From: a virus
Reading direction: 5' to 3' (one strand)
IMG/VR virus record: IMGVR_UViG_3300037264_001335
Location: 1-34,783 of that record
Length of the DNA stretch: 34,783 bases
The position numbers and the translations under genes are program-made. The notes under the pieces are model-generated. The model did not search any database. It was not told the origin of the DNA and saw only the letters and a program-made list of their open reading frames with translations. Of this stretch, positions 1,764 through 34,783 are shown piece after piece. Within the stretch, counting starts at the first letter, position 1. Each line of letters starts with the position of its first letter.

Positions 1764-1773
1764 GTTAAAATCT

Positions 1774-1796
1774 CTCCCTGGGGAGCCTATTACCCC
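1774..1796 (-). promoter_or_regulatory. Possible ribosome-binding-site sequestering switch
   Basis: Just upstream of the ATG at 1763, two four-base-pair helices compete. One pairs 1774-1777 with 1782-1785 and covers part of the GGGAGAG ribosome-binding site (complement of 1772-1778). The other pairs 1780-1783 with 1793-1796 and would free the site. They cannot form together. The helices are short, so this is suggestive only; it matters because a long structured noncoding region lies directly upstream. Confidence 0.3.
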
Positions 1797-1803
1797 TATC
1801 TGC

Positions 1804-2035
1804 ATTTAAAGTCTATGTTGGCCGATGCGTAAGTCTTCAACCCTTGTGATTGCTGGTCGTGGAACTGCTCTCCACTAAACAAATGGCATCTTAAAGTTTT
1901 GCCCTACTCCGAGTTTATTAAAACAGGTTGCCTATTCTCCCCAGTTATCGGCAAGGTGAACCTATAAACCCCACTTCAATCGGTCTTACCCGATCTCTGT
2001 TTCTTTTATGTGGAAACAGCCTTAGCACATAATAA
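1804..2035 (-). ncRNA. Candidate structured noncoding RNA or long 5' leader
   Basis: About 230 bases between a terminator and the gene at 1524-1763 carry no open frame beyond about six codons on either strand. Read on the minus strand they form local hairpins: CTGTTTC with GAAACAG (1997-2019, seven pairs), ATCGG with CCGAT (1979-1994), and GTGGA with TCCAC (1859-1875). A longer-range match joins 1947-1954 with 1818-1826 and would close a domain of roughly 130 bases. The 1979-1994 hairpin gains a sixth pair only as G-U on the minus strand. I do not recognise it as tmRNA, 6S, RNase P, a group I intron or a common riboswitch. It could be a free RNA or the leader of the next gene. Confidence 0.45.
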
Positions 2036-2068
2036 AAAAGCCAAGATCAATTTTCTGATCCTGGCTTT
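2034..2068 (-). terminator. Rho-independent terminator
   Basis: Minus-strand stem of 13 pairs, 2056-2068 with 2037-2049, loop 2050-2055, followed by six T. One pair is a G-U wobble only when read on the minus strand, which fixes the direction. The TGA of the small gene at 2047-2226 forms the first bases of the 3' arm, so the terminator begins inside the coding sequence. Confidence 0.85.
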
Positions 2069-2230: not shown

Positions 2231-2266
2231 AAGAAAAACCCCAGCTCCAATTAAGGAACCAGGGTT
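2231..2266 (-). terminator. Intrinsic terminator directly before a start codon
   Basis: Minus-strand stem pairing 2255-2266 with 2237-2248 around the loop 2249-2254, followed by TTTTT-C-TT. Three of the twelve pairs are G-U wobbles only on the minus strand and would be mismatches on the plus strand, so it acts leftward. It ends about five bases before the ATG at 2226, the position of an attenuator or riboswitch terminator, or of the 3' end of a small RNA. Confidence 0.8.
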
Positions 2267-2355
2267 CTCCAGTGAAAATGTCCGAGCGCATGAACGGGCA
2301 AGTCCAAGGATCACTCGGCATTAAAATTGATTGTATAAAAATTGCCCGGTTCATG
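2231..2355 (-). ncRNA. Candidate pseudoknot small RNA or attenuator leader
   Basis: Two strong helices interleave. Helix B pairs 2342-2355 with 2289-2301 (13 pairs, one bulged base). Helix A pairs 2314-2322 with 2277-2286 (nine pairs, one bulged base). The order B', A', B, A is that of an H-type pseudoknot; the two-base joint between arms B and A is short for a 13-pair helix, so they may instead be alternative states. The predicted transcription start from the promoter-like pair at 2361-2389 falls at the first base of helix B, and an intrinsic terminator closes the unit, giving a transcript of roughly 120 bases. It contains no open frame. It resembles no riboswitch or ribozyme consensus that I can recall. 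Confidence 0.55.
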
Positions 2356-2360
2356 TGAAC

Positions 2361-2389
2361 AAATTAGTTTAGTTGGTTTTTAAAGTCAA
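2361..2389 (-). promoter_or_regulatory. Sigma-70-like promoter candidate for the pseudoknot RNA
   Basis: On the minus strand TTGACT (2384-2389) is followed after exactly 17 bases by TAATTT (2361-2366). The -35 matches consensus at five of six positions; the -10 is weak, at three of six. Transcription would begin near 2353-2355, where the structured RNA starts. It sits immediately after the stop of the 31-residue membrane protein gene. Confidence 0.45.
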
Positions 2390-4645: not shown

Positions 4646-4870
4646 TTAGTCCCCTTTTTCTCTCTCTTTTAAAATAGGTGGTTTTGGTAGGTCATTTCGA
4701 CCTCGACCCCGACCTCGACCTCGACCACGACCTCGACCCCGACCACGACCCCGACCCCGACCACGACCACGACCCCGACCCCGACCCCGACCTCGACCCC
4801 GACCACGACCTCGACCTCGACCTCGACCCCGACCCCGACCTCGACCTCGACCCCGACCCCGAATTTTCAT
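4646..4870 (-). CDS. Arg-Gly repeat protein (candidate)
   Basis: In this frame the hexamer repeat at 4700-4861 codes for 27 consecutive Arg-Gly pairs, preceded by MKI and followed by the unique tail RNDLPKPPILKEREKGD. The single variable base of each hexamer is the third base of the Arg codon, so every unit difference is silent here; frames reading Ser-Arg/Gly/Trp (minus) or Asp-Leu/Pro/His (plus) would change residues. Arg-Gly tracts usually bind nucleic acid. Against it, the ATG has no good ribosome-binding site. A rival frame starts at an ATG at 4898 that overlaps the upstream stop (TAATG) and ends at 4692. One of the two is probably expressed; I cannot be sure which. Confidence 0.4.
   Translation of the reverse strand: MKIRGRGRGRGRGRGRGRGRGRGRGRGRGRGRGRGRGRGRGRGRGRGRGRGRGRGRGRNDLPKPPILKEREKGD
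4700..4861. repeat. 27 tandem hexamers, CCNCGA on the plus strand
   Basis: Twenty-seven perfectly phased six-base units differ at only one position. On the plus strand the variable base is C in 12 units, T in 10 and A in five, and never G. The mixed order of variants argues against a very recent amplification of one unit. The array is a likely slippage hotspot. Confidence 0.97.
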
Positions 4871-7938: not shown

Positions 7939-8095
7939 ATATTTCTCCTTTATTGTTGCGAATATCGTTTTGAATTTTAGAAGCGTCTTTATCTTTTCTA
8001 TTATTCCCATGGCCACCCCCAAACTTAAATTTGATCTTGATCCAAATTTCTCTAGCCTTTAATTTTTCAAGCCAAGCGTTAATCTGCCGACTCAT
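7913..8095 (-). CDS. Small basic phage protein
   Basis: A 60-residue, Lys-rich protein beginning MSRQINAWLEKLKAREIWIK. Its first half is an amphipathic helix ending in KFKFGGGHGNN. It overlaps the cyclase-like gene upstream by four bases (ATGA) and the holin-like gene downstream by 26 bases in another frame. The coupled start supports it, though the overlap means an extended form of the holin-like protein (from 8010) competes for the same DNA. No family can be given; a membrane-associated or lysis-accessory role would fit the position. Confidence 0.5.
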   Translation of the reverse strand: MSRQINAWLEKLKAREIWIKIKFKFGGGHGNNRKDKDASKIQNDIRNNKGEIYDQRHEKF

Positions 8096-8652
8096 TTCTT
8101 TATTTCAAACTCCCAAAGCTCTTTCATATCTTCCTCAAAAACGCCGTCTAAAGCCATTTTGGGCTTGTTTATTTTTGTAAACGTGAATCCGAACTTTTTA
8201 ATGTGCGCGTCAATTAGGACTTCTTTAATAGAAGCGTGGCAAATAAAGGGGATGTGTTTGTCCACTCTAAGGAGTTTCGCCGTCATCCCGATATGATACC
8301 CCCTATAGTCTACGTCTCCGTCTTTGTGCATCTTTTCTTCGACATAGCCACAAGAAACTCTCATTCTGAAACCTTCTGGCCTGGGGTTTGGATGTTGTTT
8401 GATCCATTTCGCCATTTTCTGTTTGAAGTCCCATAATGTAATTAAATAATCAGAGACTTGAAGCGAGGAGGCATGGTCTAAATTTAGAATTATCATAAAC
8501 CCATCCCCCAGCCGCTTGACCCAAAAGTTTTGGATCTTCTTCAAGTTTGAAATAGTGTCGTCCATTTTGTCTATCAAAGCGAGATATTCTCGCCCTTGAT
8601 TGTTCACTCTTTGAAGCCATGTAGACGATCCCTCGATGTCCCCAAACGCCAC
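8092..8652 (-). CDS. Class III nucleotidyl cyclase-like protein
   Basis: A 186-residue stand-alone domain of the class III nucleotidyl cyclase fold, which makes cyclic nucleotides in the cytoplasm. Counting from the GTG at 8652, FGDIEGSS carries the first metal Asp (5), VKRLGDGF carries Lys46 and the second metal Asp (50), MRVSCGYVE is the later core strand, and DYRGYHIGMTAKLL matches the D-x-x-G-x-x-V-N-x-A-x-R motif. The Asn and Arg that stabilise the transition state are replaced by Gly122 and Lys126, so activity is uncertain. The frame is open upstream to 8712, adding LKRKRSTQQQISRNIKVAVA (completing the first strand) but with only CTG (8706) or ATT (8709) as start codons. It lies between a coiled-coil membrane protein and a holin-like gene. 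Confidence 0.75.
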   Translation of the reverse strand: MAFGDIEGSSTWLQRVNNQGREYLALIDKMDDTISNLKKIQNFWVKRLGDGFMIILNLDHASSLQVSDYLITLWDFKQKMAKWIKQHPNPRPEGFRMRVSCGYVEEKMHKDGDVDYRGYHIGMTAKLLRVDKHIPFICHASIKEVLIDAHIKKFGFTFTKINKPKMALDGVFEEDMKELWEFEIKK

Positions 8653-15637: not shown

Positions 15638-16660
15638 TTACAGGTTCGCTGAAAGGACATTCGATTGGATGGTGGTAACAATAGCGTATCCAGTTGTCGT
15701 TTGAGGATTTGAGGTGATTACGTCAAAGGTAATTTCACTTTGAAGTAAATCCCCTGCACCAGACAGTTCTGGATCTGGCGAATTCATGAGAACCTTTGGC
15801 ATATCTATCTGCCATTTGTAGGTTAAAGCCGACGTAGAGGTGACAGCGGACCCTGTAAATTCGAGTCTAATGGCCCCTTCTGTGGCTTGCATGAACCTGG
15901 AATAGTTCGTGGTGGTGTCCCATCTTTGACCAATGGTCAATTGAATATCCCTTTGGGTAGCAGGTAGAACACTTGGGAGTTGGCTTCCTAGCTGTCGCGC
16001 AGGCGCGTCCGAAATGATCCCGTTATCAATAACCAACTCAAAGGATTGAATCGGTTCGGCATTGGTTGTGGTTAAGCTCGACGTTCCGGCGGCGTAGATA
16101 TACTGACCTTGATGATAAACGAAGGGGGCAATGGTGGAAACAGATAGGGCTGTTCCAATATCATTCGTTCCCAATGTGGCATCCTTAAAGACCATTTCAA
16201 CCGACATTTTAATTGGTTCCCCAACCTCTGCGGCCAAGGTTACGACCGATGGGCGGCCCCCTGAATACTCCCACACGTGCGCGGTCCCTTTCCTAATGTT
16301 AAAGCACACGGATGCGGGCGAGGTATCAAAGTTTCCGGCGGTAATGGTATGGATAGAAACACCTGACTGAGAACTGGTAGATATTCCACCCCCCATAGCG
16401 GTCGCGTAAAGAAGGATAGATTCGATTGGGTGTAGGTAGGTTTCAAGATTCCCTGTTACGTTCTGATTGGTTTGAACACGCTTAGAAAAATCTCTTGCCT
16501 TGTTCAGTGTTTCAAGTTTCATGCTCTCTTTTTCAACTTTAAAGCTACATGAAATGGCTTCCACGGCCACCGATACGCTTGCATAAGTTCCGAAAGTCGA
16601 TTCTTTTCCATAGGCGATATAACTTCTAATCGCCGCTTGCGCTTGATCTCCTACTGCCAT
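15638..16660 (-). CDS. Major tail tube protein
   Basis: A 340-residue beta-rich protein, the tube subunit through which DNA passes. It opens with SYIAYGKESTFGTYASVSVAVEAISCSF and shows the strand-rich Thr/Ser composition of tail tube proteins, with FVYHQGQYIYAAGTSSLT and IQSFELVIDNGI in the middle and a GDLLQSEITFDVI strand near the end. It is followed by the chaperone and tape measure genes, the expected order. The length exceeds the roughly 150-250 residues of simple tube proteins, so it may carry an additional surface domain. It overlaps the DUF115-like gene upstream by ten bases. Confidence 0.85.
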   Translation of the reverse strand: MAVGDQAQAAIRSYIAYGKESTFGTYASVSVAVEAISCSFKVEKESMKLETLNKARDFSKRVQTNQNVTGNLETYLHPIESILLYATAMGGGISTSSQSGVSIHTITAGNFDTSPASVCFNIRKGTAHVWEYSGGRPSVVTLAAEVGEPIKMSVEMVFKDATLGTNDIGTALSVSTIAPFVYHQGQYIYAAGTSSLTTTNAEPIQSFELVIDNGIISDAPARQLGSQLPSVLPATQRDIQLTIGQRWDTTTNYSRFMQATEGAIRLEFTGSAVTSTSALTYKWQIDMPKVLMNSPDPELSGAGDLLQSEITFDVITSNPQTTTGYAIVTTIQSNVLSANL

Positions 16661-17625
16661 AATAGTGCCTCCTTGGATGTGAAAAAGTTTCGCTCAGCTT
16701 GTTTGTTCGCCTCGTATGATTGACGCCAACCGAGATAAGCATTTTTCACGATATCAATATTCTTGGTATTGACCTTGTTCAAAATTATTTTTAAGTCCGC
16801 CTTCAAGGGTATTTCTAAAAGACCCCTAAGTGAGCAATTGTAAACAGGGAGATCAAATGTGGTTACATAACTGATCAACCATTTACACGAAAAAAGAAGG
16901 TTCTCCGACGTAAAGCAAACATCGCCCCTCATGTCTATCATGGTTCGATGATTCATGTAATAACGCTTCGGAATCGGGTTATCCCAGGCGTAGTAATTCC
17001 CATCTTTGGGCCATGAATAATCGTAACCAACCAGGAAATAATTTTCGTATCCACCCCAATTTTCGTTTTTCTTCCCTTCGCAATTTGTCCATAAAACAAG
17101 CATCGCGTTAGATACGTTTGAAGAAGCGGGAATGACTCTTAATTGATTCCCCATTATTTTTAAAAAAACTTGCTCAGTTTCGATGGCATCTTGATTAATG
17201 TAGAAACCAACTGGGCCTTTCCAATTGGTTGTCCATTCTGGGTTTGCATAAGGGGTGGAAAGAAGTTTCACTCCGTCAGTATGTTGGATATATTTTTCTA
17301 TGAAACGGTAAGGGATACTGGCATCGGCTACCACCACATAGTCCGCTTTTACCCCATGTTCAAACAAAGCTCCAAAGGCTTTATCGCAACATATAACATC
17401 AATTTTATTCCGATATTTTTTAATGGTTTCTATGTTTTCTTCAACGCTTGAACCCATCGCTACCAAAACTGCGAATTTTCCAATACCAGAGTGTTCTAGT
17501 TTGCGAATATCAAAACTTTTAATTTGCTTATTCTTGTTCGCATTTTCTACCCAGAGTTCTTTAAACTGACCCCAGACAGAATTGCTTTGGCTTCTTACTT
17601 CGTCGGAATTAAGCAATACGCTCAT
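16651..17625 (-). CDS. DUF115/MptE-like protein
   Basis: A 324-residue protein unlike any core tail component. The middle matches the DUF115 family (MptE-like; in bacteria related to the motility-associated Maf glycosyltransferases): VLVAMGSSVEENIETIKKY is a Rossmann-type nucleotide-binding loop, then KIDVICCDKAFGALFEHGVK and ADYVVVADASIP follow, with PASSNVSNAMLVLW and the YFLVGYDYSW segment later. Known relatives transfer phosphorylated pterins or glycosylate surface proteins. Lying between the tail terminator-like gene and the tail tube, overlapping both, it is most simply a modifier of virion protein, but no substrate can be read from sequence. No signal peptide is visible. Confidence 0.8.
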   Translation of the reverse strand: MSVLLNSDEVRSQSNSVWGQFKELWVENANKNKQIKSFDIRKLEHSGIGKFAVLVAMGSSVEENIETIKKYRNKIDVICCDKAFGALFEHGVKADYVVVADASIPYRFIEKYIQHTDGVKLLSTPYANPEWTTNWKGPVGFYINQDAIETEQVFLKIMGNQLRVIPASSNVSNAMLVLWTNCEGKKNENWGGYENYFLVGYDYSWPKDGNYYAWDNPIPKRYYMNHRTMIDMRGDVCFTSENLLFSCKWLISYVTTFDLPVYNCSLRGLLEIPLKADLKIILNKVNTKNIDIVKNAYLGWRQSYEANKQAERNFFTSKEALLWQ

Positions 17626-23219: not shown

Positions 23220-25832
23220 TTAATACAACCTAGTTGCTACCAAACTCGATTGAGTTGCTTGAAAACTGCCCGCCGCTGGCGTTGCCGTAATTGATCCGTG
23301 AATGGACAAAACATCATTTGTATTTGTAGTTGTGTAATAGATAGGCGGAATATTAAATTGACCGAATTGATTGGTGATTGTTGTAACAACCCCTGTTTCT
23401 TCTGAGATTTGGGAATTGGTAATAACCCCAGGCGTATTATTTTGTCTATAAAGGTTCAACGTCACAAATTGATTTGCGGCGAAAGTCGCTCCGGTGTACC
23501 TCAAATCAATCATTCCGTCGATTCGGTATGTTCCTGAGGAAGTCAAAGTAATAGTGGAGCTTGAAGTCCCGACAGCGATTGTAGCTGTCGCAGTGGTAAA
23601 ACTATAAGCACCAATCGGAGAATAAGTTGAGATGACAAGCCCAACCCTAGCTCCATTAGTATTTAAAACCCCATCATTCGGGAGATCTATACCGCTAGTT
23701 GAAAGATAAACCTTTTTCGTCTCGGTCCCTACCGAAACAGATCCCGCTGTCACTAAGTTAGCGTTGCTATCTAAGTAGAACACGGTCCCTTTGTTTTTCG
23801 TGACATTATAAATGCGTTTTGTCCCCGATCCGGCGGATGTTTCTGTAAAACTTGTTTCAAAAAGAGTATATCCTGCCGTTCCCGACATGGCGATACTTGG
23901 ATGACTCAAAGTAAATAATGTGTTTGAACCACTTGATGCTGTCCATGAATTATGAATAATTCTAAAAAAGTTAAGTCCACCGTTAGAAGTACCTGGTTCA
24001 GTAAATTCGTACCAACCCGCTGGAGCCGTTGCCCCTCTTAACATACTGATTGAAAGTTCCGTCGAAGATCCGATATCAGACCCAATTTTTAGTTGCCTTG
24101 AAGTAGATGCCGTTCCTCTTTTAAACGTCCCCCATTCCCAGACGTTAGAATTCCATCTTCCCCCACCCCACTCTGGATTTAAACTTTCGTCTGTGGTATT
24201 AAAATGAGCAAATCTGTATTGATTAAAACCTATCCCTGAAGGGTTAGCGGGTATTTGAATCCCGGCCCACCTACCTGTAAGCCTTATCTGACCTTCCTGC
24301 CAGATGTCGATAACCCGGTCACCTTTTTCATTGTAAATATGCCCGCCTGTGTTATTCCCATAAGCAGAAGCCGCAGTCCCATCGTCGGCTCTCCAAGGGC
24401 TTGCACCGAAACCACAACAAGGTGTCGTGTCTGTGTAAACCGTGGCGGTGTTATTGTTTATGGTATGAAACGCAGCCGGGGTGGCTTGACCAGATTGGGC
24501 ACTCCTGTAAATTTTCCTTCCCGAAACTCTTGCCGTTCCCGTAGGGATATTGGTTAAAGAAACAGACGACGTGGCGGCGGTGGTGATAGCTGTGGCGTAA
24601 GTCGCCGTGCTGTGTTCAGTCTCAGTCCCATCTTCCATCACAAAGCTGACTGAGTAGTTCCAAGTCCCCGCTCCCATAAATCCGCCTGTCCCTGAATTCG
24701 TCGCCGTCACATTTGTATTTGGAGGTCTCACATATTCAAAGGTAATCCTAGAGTCTGAGCTTTTCCCCATTTGAAATGAGTTAGATTCTGTGTTTTTATC
24801 TATCACCAAATTCATATTTGAAATAGTTATTGAACTAACTCCCGAAGTCGTGTAAAGCATCGCCGTATTGGTCATGGTCGATTTGAAATTAAGGTTTTCA
24901 TCGGTTGGACCAAGACCAGTAATCGTGACAGTCGGAGAGTTGATCGCAAACCCAGCGGGAGTTTGGATCTGATTCCCACCATAAGTCGTGATAACGCCAG
25001 TACTCCTAATATGGACGTATCCTTCCGTGTTAATATCCCCTTTGACGTATTCATTTCCGACAATAACGGATACAGTACTGAAGTAAAGCGTAGGGGAAGA
25101 GGGTGTAAAAACAGGCGTGGCAACAACTCTCCCTGGGTCGATCTCGTAGCTGTTGTCCAGAGCCGTCGTCGTAATATAGGCATCGCCAGCAAAACCGTTC
25201 CAACTATCTTCAATAATCACAAGCAAATAACCCGATGCCCCCGAAACCGCTTCCCAAGTTAATTCCCAATAATAATTGTCAGTGCTTGTACCAGGATCAC
25301 AGGCAGAGATAGAGTTCTCAGTCGCTGAATAAACTGTGATATCTTCAAATGTTTTAAAAGCGTAAATATCAAAAGCAAAGCAATATCCACCATTAAAAAA
25401 AGTCCCAGAAGAGGGTGCTATAACGTAAGTCATAGAAGCGGCGGATACGTTTCCAATACTTAATGTGCTTTGAGCCCCTATGGTTTGAGAAGATCCGACA
25501 TAATGATAGGCAGGGTAAGCCGTGGCCCCGGTTTGGAGGGTGTTTCTGTTTTGAATGTATTGGGTGGAACCGGTGGGGAGAGTGCCGGAAGTGACAACAG
25601 TGACAAAATCTAATTTTCCAGTAAAAGGAGAATATATTGTTTTGTATGTTTCACCATGTGAGATTGTAATCCATGTACATATTAATAAGGTAGAATATGC
25701 AATATGCCGATAGGTAAAAATAATGGGAATTGGAAAGGTGGAAAATTTAAAAGCACGCAAGGCTATGTACTTATAACAGTGTACCCATACAGAAAACCAT
25801 TTCTTGAACATCGTTATACAATGTCTAAACAT
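23220..25832 (-). CDS. Large fibre-like protein with an interrupted N-terminus
   Basis: A Thr/Ser-rich beta protein of up to 870 residues. Residues 1-43 of this frame are antisense to the HNH gene at 25704-26231, so the listed start is doubtful. Immediately after that lies IAYSTLLICTWITISHG, a signal-peptide-like segment with no ATG or GTG in frame, leading into GETYKTIYSPFTGKLDFV and TLPTGSTQYIQNRNTLQTG. The rest has beta repeats, a fibronectin-like segment near residues 380-440 (TNSGTGGFMGAGTWNYSVSF, TARVSGRKIYRSA) and a C-terminal jelly-roll-like domain (AFTTATATIAVGTSSSTITL, VTLNLYRQNN, DVLSIHGSITATP). It is probably a large fibre or surface protein. An in-frame-start candidate on the far side of the HNH gene (ATG at 26242) suggests that the insertion split the original start. 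Confidence 0.7.
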   Translation of the reverse strand: MFRHCITMFKKWFSVWVHCYKYIALRAFKFSTFPIPIIFTYRHIAYSTLLICTWITISHGETYKTIYSPFTGKLDFVTVVTSGTLPTGSTQYIQNRNTLQTGATAYPAYHYVGSSQTIGAQSTLSIGNVSAASMTYVIAPSSGTFFNGGYCFAFDIYAFKTFEDITVYSATENSISACDPGTSTDNYYWELTWEAVSGASGYLLVIIEDSWNGFAGDAYITTTALDNSYEIDPGRVVATPVFTPSSPTLYFSTVSVIVGNEYVKGDINTEGYVHIRSTGVITTYGGNQIQTPAGFAINSPTVTITGLGPTDENLNFKSTMTNTAMLYTTSGVSSITISNMNLVIDKNTESNSFQMGKSSDSRITFEYVRPPNTNVTATNSGTGGFMGAGTWNYSVSFVMEDGTETEHSTATYATAITTAATSSVSLTNIPTGTARVSGRKIYRSAQSGQATPAAFHTINNNTATVYTDTTPCCGFGASPWRADDGTAASAYGNNTGGHIYNEKGDRVIDIWQEGQIRLTGRWAGIQIPANPSGIGFNQYRFAHFNTTDESLNPEWGGGRWNSNVWEWGTFKRGTASTSRQLKIGSDIGSSTELSISMLRGATAPAGWYEFTEPGTSNGGLNFFRIIHNSWTASSGSNTLFTLSHPSIAMSGTAGYTLFETSFTETSAGSGTKRIYNVTKNKGTVFYLDSNANLVTAGSVSVGTETKKVYLSTSGIDLPNDGVLNTNGARVGLVISTYSPIGAYSFTTATATIAVGTSSSTITLTSSGTYRIDGMIDLRYTGATFAANQFVTLNLYRQNNTPGVITNSQISEETGVVTTITNQFGQFNIPPIYYTTTNTNDVLSIHGSITATPAAGSFQATQSSLVATRLY

Positions 25833-26231
25833 CTAAATAGGCCGCTTTCTAAAAATGAAATTGTCCATCATATCAATGGGGATAAAACTGACAACAGAAT
25901 TGAAAATCTTGAAATTCTTAGCAGATCTTCTCACGCGAGAATCCATTCCATTGGTAGAATATTTTCTAAAGAATCTAGAAATAAAATGAGATTAGCTCGT
26001 TTAGGTATAACGCTCTCCGATATAACCAAGATAAAAATTAGCAAGGCTTTAATTGGCAGAAAACCAACGGAAGCAACTAGAAAAAAACTTCGCTTGGCCA
26101 GGACCAAAAGAGTATTTACAAAACAGACAAGAGAAAAAATGAGCGCATGGCAAATAGGTAGGAAGATGTCTAAAGAAGCTAAATCGAAAATGTCTTTAGC
26201 TAAAAAACGATATTGGTCATTAAGAAAATAA
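25704..26231 (+). CDS. HNH homing endonuclease with NUMOD3-like repeats
   Basis: A 175-residue homing-type endonuclease and the only gene on the plus strand. The N-terminal domain holds GKNNGNWKGGKFKSTQGYV, then EHRYTMSKHLNRPLSKNE, the catalytic HHINGDKTDNRIENLE region, and SRSSHARIH. The C-terminal half has three NUMOD3-like DNA-binding repeats (FSKESRNKMRLARLG, PTEATRKKLRLA, MSKEAKSKMSLAKKRYW). It is AT-rich compared with its neighbours, as is common for recently acquired homing genes. It lies across the 5' end of the fibre gene, on the opposite strand. There is no room for a group I intron core around it. Confidence 0.9.
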   Translation: MPIGKNNGNWKGGKFKSTQGYVLITVYPYRKPFLEHRYTMSKHLNRPLSKNEIVHHINGDKTDNRIENLEILSRSSHARIHSIGRIFSKESRNKMRLARLGITLSDITKIKISKALIGRKPTEATRKKLRLARTKRVFTKQTREKMSAWQIGRKMSKEAKSKMSLAKKRYWSLRK

Positions 26232-32419: not shown

Positions 32420-33811
32420 TCATGCCGTTTTGACTTCTTCCTTCTTTTCAACCCCATTGCCATTCCCGTTTGTTTCAAACATCGGATCGTGCGGGTTTAT
32501 TTCAACCTCGGCTTCTTTGAACAATTTTTCCTTTATCTTTTCTGTGGCCACTTCTTCCCAGTGAGGAATGTCGGTGGCGGTCTTACACAACCACACCATT
32601 GCTTCTCCCCATTTCAACGGATCAAGGATACTCGCTTCATGGAAAGCCTGCATGGCTTGTTTCATCTGGCCCAAGTGACGATGACAATATCCTTTGAACA
32701 TGAGTATATCCGCGTTCACTTTTGTTTTCGATAGGTACTCAAAATCTTCCAAGGCTCCGGCGTATTCTTGGTTTTGATACAAGAAATAAGCACGAATGAT
32801 ATGGAGCTTCGGATAGCGCGGCATAAGTTTCATACACTCATCAATAAGTTCTGCCGCTTTTCCACGGTCCTTTTTCTGCTGACTGTTTAGAACCCAGTCA
32901 TAATAAGCGTCTGGAAATTTAGGCCATGTGTTTATGGCTTCACGAAACTTCATTTCCTTCCCTGGGGACGTGCTGGCTTCTTTAAATAGTTCGATGGCTT
33001 TTTTTGTTTTTTCCAATTTAGCGAGGACTTCTTTCCAATCATCAAATGGATACTCTGGAATCTTCTCACCTGGTTTGGCTTTTCTTAGCAAGTAAGACTG
33101 ACCATAAATGAGTCGGTCTGAATGTTCAACAATCAAACCGTATTTAGAAAACATCCTGTTTAATGATTCGTAGGTAAAGACGTTAATGTGATCTTTATGG
33201 AAAAGATTTTGGAAAGTTGTGACACGACCAACTCCTGACTCATCCAATATGTGAAGCCATTCTGGGGTGGCGATAAGCATATGACCATCATCGGCCATCA
33301 TATCGATGTAGCGTTGTAGCTTTTTGTTTGGTTCAACCAAATGTTCAAAAACGTGATACATGATAATCAAATCGTATTTATGCTTCGTTGGCAATTCTTC
33401 GGTGACTGGAATTCCGTAAAAGTGCTCTGCGAATCTTCGCATGGTCACGGTCCATTCTGAACCCGTGGCCTTATGCCCTCTTTGCCTGAACCAATTAGGA
33501 ATATATCCCGTGGCACATCCCACGTCTCCCACAATTAATTTTCTTCCCAACTTTTCTTGTTCGGTGAGCCACGGATCAATAAAGTTCTTGATATAGTTTA
33601 GTTTTCGTGATGTCGTTTGAAGGTTGGATGGCCCGATTTGCCCCCTGTACTCCTTTCGGTAATAGTCTTTTACCTTTTGTTCTTCGGTGGGATCTATTTG
33701 ATAAGCTATGAGGCCACATTTTTTACAAATTCCTAACTGCCTTTCCTTCCATCCTGTGAACTCAAAAGGCATTAAATGCCAATCGTTTGAATCACATCCA
33801 AAACAAGTCAT
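32420..33811 (-). CDS. Zinc-ribbon SAM methyltransferase with TPR tail
   Basis: A 463-residue protein in three parts. Residues 1-35 hold a zinc ribbon (Cys3, Cys6, Cys29, Cys32), as in the zinc-binding N-terminus of sugar C-methyltransferases. Residues 85-245 are a class I methyltransferase with the SAM-binding VGDVGCATGYIPNWF and the MYHVFEHLVEPNKKL motif. Residues about 290-430 are TPR-like helical repeats (AAELIDECMKLMPRYPKLHII, AGALEDFEYLS, MQAFHEASILDPLKW). The likely substrate is a sugar or a surface group, inferred from the zinc ribbon and from the neighbouring aldolase. It overlaps the aldolase gene by four bases. Confidence 0.82.
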   Translation of the reverse strand: MTCFGCDSNDWHLMPFEFTGWKERQLGICKKCGLIAYQIDPTEEQKVKDYYRKEYRGQIGPSNLQTTSRKLNYIKNFIDPWLTEQEKLGRKLIVGDVGCATGYIPNWFRQRGHKATGSEWTVTMRRFAEHFYGIPVTEELPTKHKYDLIIMYHVFEHLVEPNKKLQRYIDMMADDGHMLIATPEWLHILDESGVGRVTTFQNLFHKDHINVFTYESLNRMFSKYGLIVEHSDRLIYGQSYLLRKAKPGEKIPEYPFDDWKEVLAKLEKTKKAIELFKEASTSPGKEMKFREAINTWPKFPDAYYDWVLNSQQKKDRGKAAELIDECMKLMPRYPKLHIIRAYFLYQNQEYAGALEDFEYLSKTKVNADILMFKGYCHRHLGQMKQAMQAFHEASILDPLKWGEAMVWLCKTATDIPHWEEVATEKIKEKLFKEAEVEINPHDPMFETNGNGNGVEKKEEVKTA

Positions 33812-34710
33812 GTGTGGCTCCTGGTGTCTGACGTAACAAATTCTATTTCGGCATTGGTCATTAAATATTTTGCCGCGATGTCGTTGCCTTTAATGCCTTG
33901 AACTGCCGCACGAACCATATCAATTTTATTTTTGAGATTGCCAAAGTTTTCAAGTGGATAAGCTTGATCGGCATCACTTAGGCTTTTTTCTGGATTTGGA
34001 TGGACTTCCACCAAGAACCCATCGGCCCCTGCCGCTACGCCAGCCAGTGTCATTGGTTCCACCAGATCCCTTCTTCCCGTCCCGTGGCTGGCATCGATGA
34101 TGATCGGTATTTTGGTTATGGATTTGACAGCGGGAATCATAGATATGGAGGCATCCCATCGCACATGGGTGTGATATGTAGAAGATCCCCTCTCGATTAG
34201 AATCGGATCGCATAATCCCCCTGACAATAAATGTTCTGCCGCGCCGAGAAATTCATCAATATTCGCTCCCATGTTTCTTTTTAAAAAGACGGTTCTTTTC
34301 ATCGAACCAAGGATTCTGAGTAATGGATAGTTTTGCATCTGCCTGGCCCCGACTTGGAACGCGTCCGCATACTTAAAGGCCATATTTAAAAACGTGGGAT
34401 CATAGCTTAAAACTTCGATAATGCACTTCATTCCATTTTCATGGGCGGCCCTGGAATATTCTTGAATGGCAATTTCAGGGATCGAACCAAAGGCCGCGCC
34501 AGGATAAGTTCCGGCACGAAAAACTCCGCCTCGTAAATATTCGACTTTGTGTTTTTTTAACTCACTGGCAATGGCATGGATTTGATCGACGCTTTCAACC
34601 GCACAAGGTCCGACAATGGATATGAACGGTCTTTCGGGAGGATGATATTTCTCGACTCTGTGATACTTAGGAACTGGCCCCCATTGGCGTCGGAATGAGA
34701 ATTCATTCAT
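33808..34710 (-). CDS. DAHP synthase-family (class I aldolase-type) enzyme
   Basis: A 300-residue enzyme of the DAHP/KDO-8-phosphate synthase family, which joins phosphoenolpyruvate to a sugar phosphate. It shows ISIVGPCAVES near the N-terminus, AFQVGARQMQNYPLL, TVFLKRNMGA, ILIERGSSTY, IIIDASHGTGRRDLVEP and GFLVEVHPNPEKSLSDADQ, all in order. The usual Lys-Pro-Arg-Thr-Ser-Pro PEP loop is changed to RGGVFRAGTYPGA, so substrate use may differ. I chose the ATG at 34710 because it overlaps the stop of the preceding gene by eight bases and has GGAGAG upstream; an ATG at 34761 would add 17 residues. In a phage this is an acquired metabolic gene; DAHP feeds aromatic compound synthesis. Confidence 0.85.
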   Translation of the reverse strand: MNEFSFRRQWGPVPKYHRVEKYHPPERPFISIVGPCAVESVDQIHAIASELKKHKVEYLRGGVFRAGTYPGAAFGSIPEIAIQEYSRAAHENGMKCIIEVLSYDPTFLNMAFKYADAFQVGARQMQNYPLLRILGSMKRTVFLKRNMGANIDEFLGAAEHLLSGGLCDPILIERGSSTYHTHVRWDASISMIPAVKSITKIPIIIDASHGTGRRDLVEPMTLAGVAAGADGFLVEVHPNPEKSLSDADQAYPLENFGNLKNKIDMVRAAVQGIKGNDIAAKYLMTNAEIEFVTSDTRSHT

Positions 34711-34783
34711 GGTAAATTCGCTCTCCACATTTGGGGCATTTTTGCTTGTAGATGTTTCCATTCACGCCCGCAACCATGGGAGT
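34703..34783 (-). CDS. Partial small zinc-ribbon gene at window edge
   Basis: The right edge carries the end of a small gene in the frame with VNGNIYKQKCPKCGERIYHE and a TGA at 34703. CPKCG is a classical half zinc ribbon. The frame is open to the edge, so the true start is outside or at the ATG at 34777. Its overlap with the aldolase start (ATGAATGA) suggests coupling. Confidence 0.6.
   Translation of the reverse strand, partial: TPMVAGVNGNIYKQKCPKCGERIYHE

Follow-up and report, generated by a model that had tools for sequence, protein, structure and literature searches.

The window analyzed here (34,783 bases, an IMG/VR virus record) is a tailed-phage genome or a fragment of one, and its minus strand holds most of the genes. 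The longest stretch of the record without large genes, positions 1764-2532, contains a structured element. Along the minus strand, a gene for a 31-residue hydrophobic peptide (2493-2398) is directly followed by the element, then by a gene of 59 residues (2226-2047), by a second intrinsic terminator of 14 pairs at the end of that gene (2068-2037) and by about 270 gene-free bases. This last stretch (1764-2036, minus strand) holds no convincing gene, and its RNA fold is unremarkable (z -1.19). Every feature of the element (promoter-like pair, helices, terminator and gene) is on the minus strand; an earlier sequence-only reading of this DNA had given plus-strand coordinates only.

By sequence comparison, none of the collections that we searched contains a close relative of the phage. 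A RecT search returned 80 loci with a best identity of 64%, and the relatives of the major capsid protein reach at most 37%. The three nearest RecT records, compared fully or largely, have only RecE/RecT and a short methyltransferase stretch in common with the window. In the records of the eleven best RecT loci, several of which are fragments, neither the RNA nor the 59- or the 157-residue protein is present at detectable similarity. Searches of viral contigs, phage records, plasmids and genome patterns revealed no homologue of the RNA region, and exact-pattern scans for the RNA in viral and genome collections gave nothing beyond chance.

Elsewhere in the record, a DAHP synthase-like gene (33808-34761, minus strand; PF00793, E 5.5e-44) is a possible auxiliary metabolic gene; its best genome matches, 36-46% identical, are scattered over many phyla and point to no host. 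Other features include a protein with an MptE-like domain amid the structural genes (16651-17625, minus strand; PF01973, E 1.5e-19), a homing-endonuclease-like gene with HNH_3 and NUMOD3 domains on the strand opposite to its neighbours (25704-26231, plus strand) and a weak match to a nucleotide cyclase catalytic domain, under the curated cut-off (8092-8652, minus strand; PF00211, E 0.00095). About 27 CGACCC hexamers stand in tandem at 4697-4862, where several frames are open, encoding (GR)n or (DPDLDP)n. A tRNA search found none.

The element is built on two long complementarities. In helix A, the 5' arm CATGAAC(C)GGGCAA (2355-2342) pairs with the 3' arm TTGCCCGTTCATG (2301-2289) through 13 pairs with one bulged C. 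In helix B, the 5' arm AATGCCGAGTG (2322-2312) pairs with the 3' arm CGCTCGG(A)CATT (2288-2277) through 11 pairs, with one bulged A opposite. The helices interleave; their loops measure 19 and 10 bases, and the fold spans about 79 nt; the 3' arm of B abuts the 3' arm of A with zero bases between them. The sequence-only reading had recognized this order and the 13 pairs of helix A, and the nine pairs that it gave for helix B are extended here to 11 around the bulged A. A 16-mer of the A3'/B3' junction has 22 matches in the exact-pattern scans, approximately the estimated chance number, and matching partner arms accompany none of them.

With a simple helix score, the interleaved pair reaches 53.8, a value attained by none of 40,000 dinucleotide shuffles (shuffle maximum, 48.8). 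Across 2,314 overlapping sliding windows on both strands, no other two interleaved helices are as strong. The same holds for the 185 terminators of the window and of about 1.58 Mb of fetched phage DNA: none of the others has an equally strong pair just upstream; the runner-up there scores 49.0 and includes a G-U-rich helix. The interleaved helix pair is beyond chance, and as a sequence feature the element is real. Its 131-nt minus-strand RNA folds at z -5.05, to which the terminator contributes much. We rejected the plus-strand RNA, which folds more weakly (z -1.60) and has no terminator at the right place. The sequence-only reading had named no matching RNA family and had asked for an Rfam search. 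That search agrees with it: nothing in the window matches at the gathering threshold, and a permissive scan of 2030-2540 yields only sub-threshold, chance-level matches.

Just upstream of helix A is the promoter put forward in the sequence-only reading, a -35-like TTGACT (2389-2384) and a -10-like TAATTT (2366-2361; 3 of 6 consensus bases) with a 17-base spacer and a predicted start near 2354. The sequence, the spacing and the predicted start are as claimed, but the strength is not: the pair has 8 of 12 consensus matches, and pairs this good occur 11.6 times per kb per strand, which is not above chance. Because they are so frequent, it is no surprise that one of them predicts a start only a few bases from helix A. 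Our promoter scan, with a threshold of at least 9 of 12 matches, leaves this pair unlisted and lists another candidate, TTCACA-18-TACAAT (2359-2330; 10 of 12 matches), which overlaps the 5' arm of helix A. Its predicted start near 2323 falls inside the loop, and a transcript beginning there would lack that arm. Thus, of the 'complete unit' proposed earlier, the structure, the strand and the terminator stand, and the promoter half does not rise above chance.

A palindrome, GTTCACATGAAC (2360-2349), overlaps the candidate start, and both the use of a promoter here and any conservation are putative. These points fit a reading in which the arms are a coincidence or a DNA-level feature, such as repressor operators, ahead of an ordinary terminator. 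However, one inverted duplication cannot give the interleaved order, no shuffle reaches the helix score, and both the palindrome (18 found, 17.9 expected) and the A-arm motif (13 found, 10.5 expected) recur in the window at chance. With no excess of either motif, we rejected repressor-operator repeats, and we regard coincidence or a DNA-level role as improbable.

Below the helices lies an intrinsic terminator (2270-2233) with a 16-pair stem, a 6-nt loop and a U-rich tail, at -23.8 kcal/mol. As the sequence-only reading had noted, several of its G-U pairs are valid on the minus strand alone. The complementarities, the terminator and the position of the gene behind it are all legible in the sequence itself.

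Whether helices A and B could exist together bears on what kind of RNA ends at this terminator. As separate duplexes they are worth -17.9 and -13.2 kcal/mol, and the best nested structure of this segment comes to -19.8 kcal/mol; in terms of energy a true pseudoknot is thus possible, provided that the loops and the joint permit it. Since A3' and B3' adjoin directly, a strict pseudoknot with the full 13 + 11 pairs is sterically unusual. One explanation is that the locus makes a stand-alone, pseudoknotted small RNA of about 120 nt, acting in trans or with a protein, while the 59-residue gene is expressed through leak-through or an unseen promoter. The candidate start, the structure and the terminator would make a compact unit, the energies given above would let A and B coexist in principle, and structured RNAs are known in phages, for example pseudo-ToxI, the ToxI mimic carried by phage PhiTE (PMC3475682). 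Against this explanation stand the weak promoter and the unusual joint, and the placement of the 59-residue gene is left unexplained. The top antisense duplexes in the window are also no stronger than those of shuffled queries, and an antisense role against other phage genes was rejected. Overall, we consider a stand-alone small RNA somewhat unlikely.

A third pairing, new here and absent from the earlier note, connects the helices to the terminator. A candidate antiterminator arm within the 5' arm of helix A, GAACCGGG (2352-2345), can form 8 bp with CCTGGTTC (2263-2256) in the 5' arm of the terminator. This pairing encloses helix B and is compatible with it, but neither helix A nor the terminator can form alongside it. 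When either arm is shuffled, about 0.5% of the sequences pair as well (107 and 115 of 20,000); this test was conceived after the pairing had been spotted. An upstream pairing of at least 7 bp with the terminator 5' arm is found for 20 of 189 phage terminators, about 1 in 10, and given this frequency the competing 8-bp pairing may be due to chance.

Folding of growing transcripts predicts a change between folding states, with the caveat that the equilibrium model used takes no account of pseudoknots. In transcripts that begin at 2355, helix A is predicted until the end reaches 2260 (probability 0.97). For ends at 2256-2248, the antiterminator together with helix B replaces helix A (probabilities 0.99-1.00), and from 2240 onward helix A and the terminator are restored and the antiterminator is displaced. 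At full length the terminated state is the more stable by 9-14 kcal/mol in this model; therefore, some additional factor would be needed to keep the antiterminator in place. The sequence-only reading had suggested that the two helices may be alternatives that act as a switch. The model lends this some support, in that the pairing of the A 5' arm with the terminator arm would fit helix B and exclude helix A.

The 59-residue gene starts 6 bases beyond the terminator stem, which agrees with the earlier description of a gene beginning right after the terminator; a program-made list of open reading frames opens its frame at an earlier TTG. Its codon score of 0.207 is within the range of the phage's genes and above the alternative frames, and AlphaFold2, run from the sequence alone, models the protein as a four-strand sheet with a mean pLDDT of 73. 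With a typical codon score and this model, the gene is probably real. Searches of PHROGs, Pfam, NCBIfam, PADLOC and PDB sequences gave no match to the protein, and no convincing relative emerged among phages, plasmids or viral contigs. Its predicted fold gives no structural match at E ≤ 0.001, and a motif search returned two matches, both unrelated.

The best Shine-Dalgarno match of this gene lies inside the 3' arm of the terminator, farther away than in most other genes of the phage. Since its start codon has poor ribosome-binding spacing, the true start may be later, for example at the ATG at 2181. Because the start is only 6 bases past the stem and the Shine-Dalgarno sequence is in the terminator 3' arm, expression would require both read-through and opening of the terminator hairpin. 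The 6-base gap leaves no room for a convincing promoter of the gene's own, so expression would be by read-through only. We also considered a 43-residue open frame (2354-2223, minus strand) that crosses both helices and the terminator and overlaps the 59-residue gene at an ATGA. We rejected it as coding: its Shine-Dalgarno match is only -1.5 kcal/mol, its codon score of 0.051 is just under the 5th percentile of true genes, and its frame is not the best-scoring among its frames. A leaderless leader peptide might be envisaged, since the 31-residue peptide scores low too, but the frame is not supported as coding.

The upstream side of the element allows a different role. The 31-residue peptide gene has a low codon score and a good ribosome-binding site (Shine-Dalgarno match of -8.7 kcal/mol), the genes above it are closely packed on the same strand, and it has no terminator of its own before 2233. 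The element could thus be a 3'-UTR element of the upstream operon, in which the terminator would simply end the peptide-gene transcript, with the helices protecting or tuning that 3' end. This would leave unexplained why the 59-residue gene lies directly past the terminator and why a second terminator follows at 2037-2068, and we judge it unlikely.

Taken together, these observations lead us to prefer, tentatively and at a little under an even chance, an attenuating leader: a structured RNA that would give a terminated transcript of about 120 nt and occasional read-through expression of the 59-residue gene, in a layout like that of IsrK or of type III toxin-antitoxin operons. As in an attenuator, an intrinsic terminator sits between the leader and the gene. 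RNA polymerase would start just upstream, or read through from the operon above. Helices A and B would form, the terminator would then usually stop the polymerase to leave the short RNA, and the 59-residue gene would be on only upon read-through. The 5' arm of A would choose between A3', giving helix A and a state compatible with termination, and the terminator 5' arm, giving the 8-bp antiterminator around helix B. Anything that favors the antiterminator, for example a ligand, a protein, a pause of the polymerase or another RNA, would switch the gene on. In such a leader A and B need not coexist, as A goes with termination and B with the antiterminator. The tight joint between A3' and B3' would then be explained, because the two helices would act in different states. 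We infer transcription of the element, switching in the cell and any signal that would act on it.

In favor of the attenuator we count the helices above chance, the strong terminator before a coding-like gene, the 8-bp arm pairing, the exchange during transcript folding and the Shine-Dalgarno sequence in the terminator. Against it we count the absence of homologues from the collections searched, the weak promoter, the poor start-codon spacing, the 9-14 kcal/mol gap, the 20 of 189 terminators with a similar pairing and a folding model that leaves pseudoknots aside.

Comparison with known systems shows which parts of this arrangement are familiar. At the IsrK locus of the Salmonella prophage Gifsy-1, a fraction of transcripts passes the terminator of the small RNA toward a 45-residue ORF (PMC4825925). 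Like the element, IsrK is a short phage-borne RNA with an intrinsic terminator at its end, a small ORF downstream (45 residues there, 59 here) and an involvement of alternative structures. In contrast, the targets of IsrK in its own locus, an anti-repressor gene and a Q-like antiterminator (PMC4825925), are not seen here. The likeness is one of layout, with no claim of a sequence relation, and read-through at our locus would be its counterpart by inference.

In the type III toxin-antitoxin operons ToxIN, CptIN and TenpIN, a terminator sits between a pseudoknotted RNA and the toxin gene (PMC5086642). The same order is found here, with an RNA that could form a pseudoknot, a Rho-independent terminator (2270-2233) and a protein gene (from 2226). 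However, the element is a single unit, its fold of about 79 nt holding 13 and 11 pairs, whereas a ToxI unit is 36 nt long and belongs to a tandem repeat array. We looked for both the repeat array and the toxin and found neither: no array is present at the element, the sole tandem array of the window being the one at 4697-4862, and the 59-residue protein has no toxin-family match and no fold match at E ≤ 0.001 that would suggest a ToxN-like endoribonuclease. For these reasons, the element is not a member of the type III toxin-antitoxin systems. By analogy, it may work like IsrK or like the type III operons.

Attenuators and pseudoknotted terminator riboswitches, such as those for fluoride and preQ1 (PMC11077080, PMC11625349), resemble what is proposed here, in that an upstream pairing would rival an intrinsic terminator before a gene and the upstream domain may be pseudoknotted. 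The element differs from them in having no Rfam match, a downstream gene that matches no known family and a terminator far more stable than the alternative pairing.

It is very likely that the element acts as an RNA, and it is probably a switch or a small RNA of a familiar kind; nothing that we found requires a new kind of system. A new class of phage RNA, in which a pair of long interleaved helices and an antiterminator contend for a single arm, so that termination would yield a stable RNA and read-through a 59-residue protein that possibly binds it, is in our view decidedly unlikely. Should the element be no more than a decorated terminator, its importance would be small. Were it to work as an attenuator or a small RNA, it would add a structured RNA with no Rfam family, from a phage without close relatives in the collections searched, and would provide a precise and readily mutated test case with three arms, two exclusive pairings and one gene.
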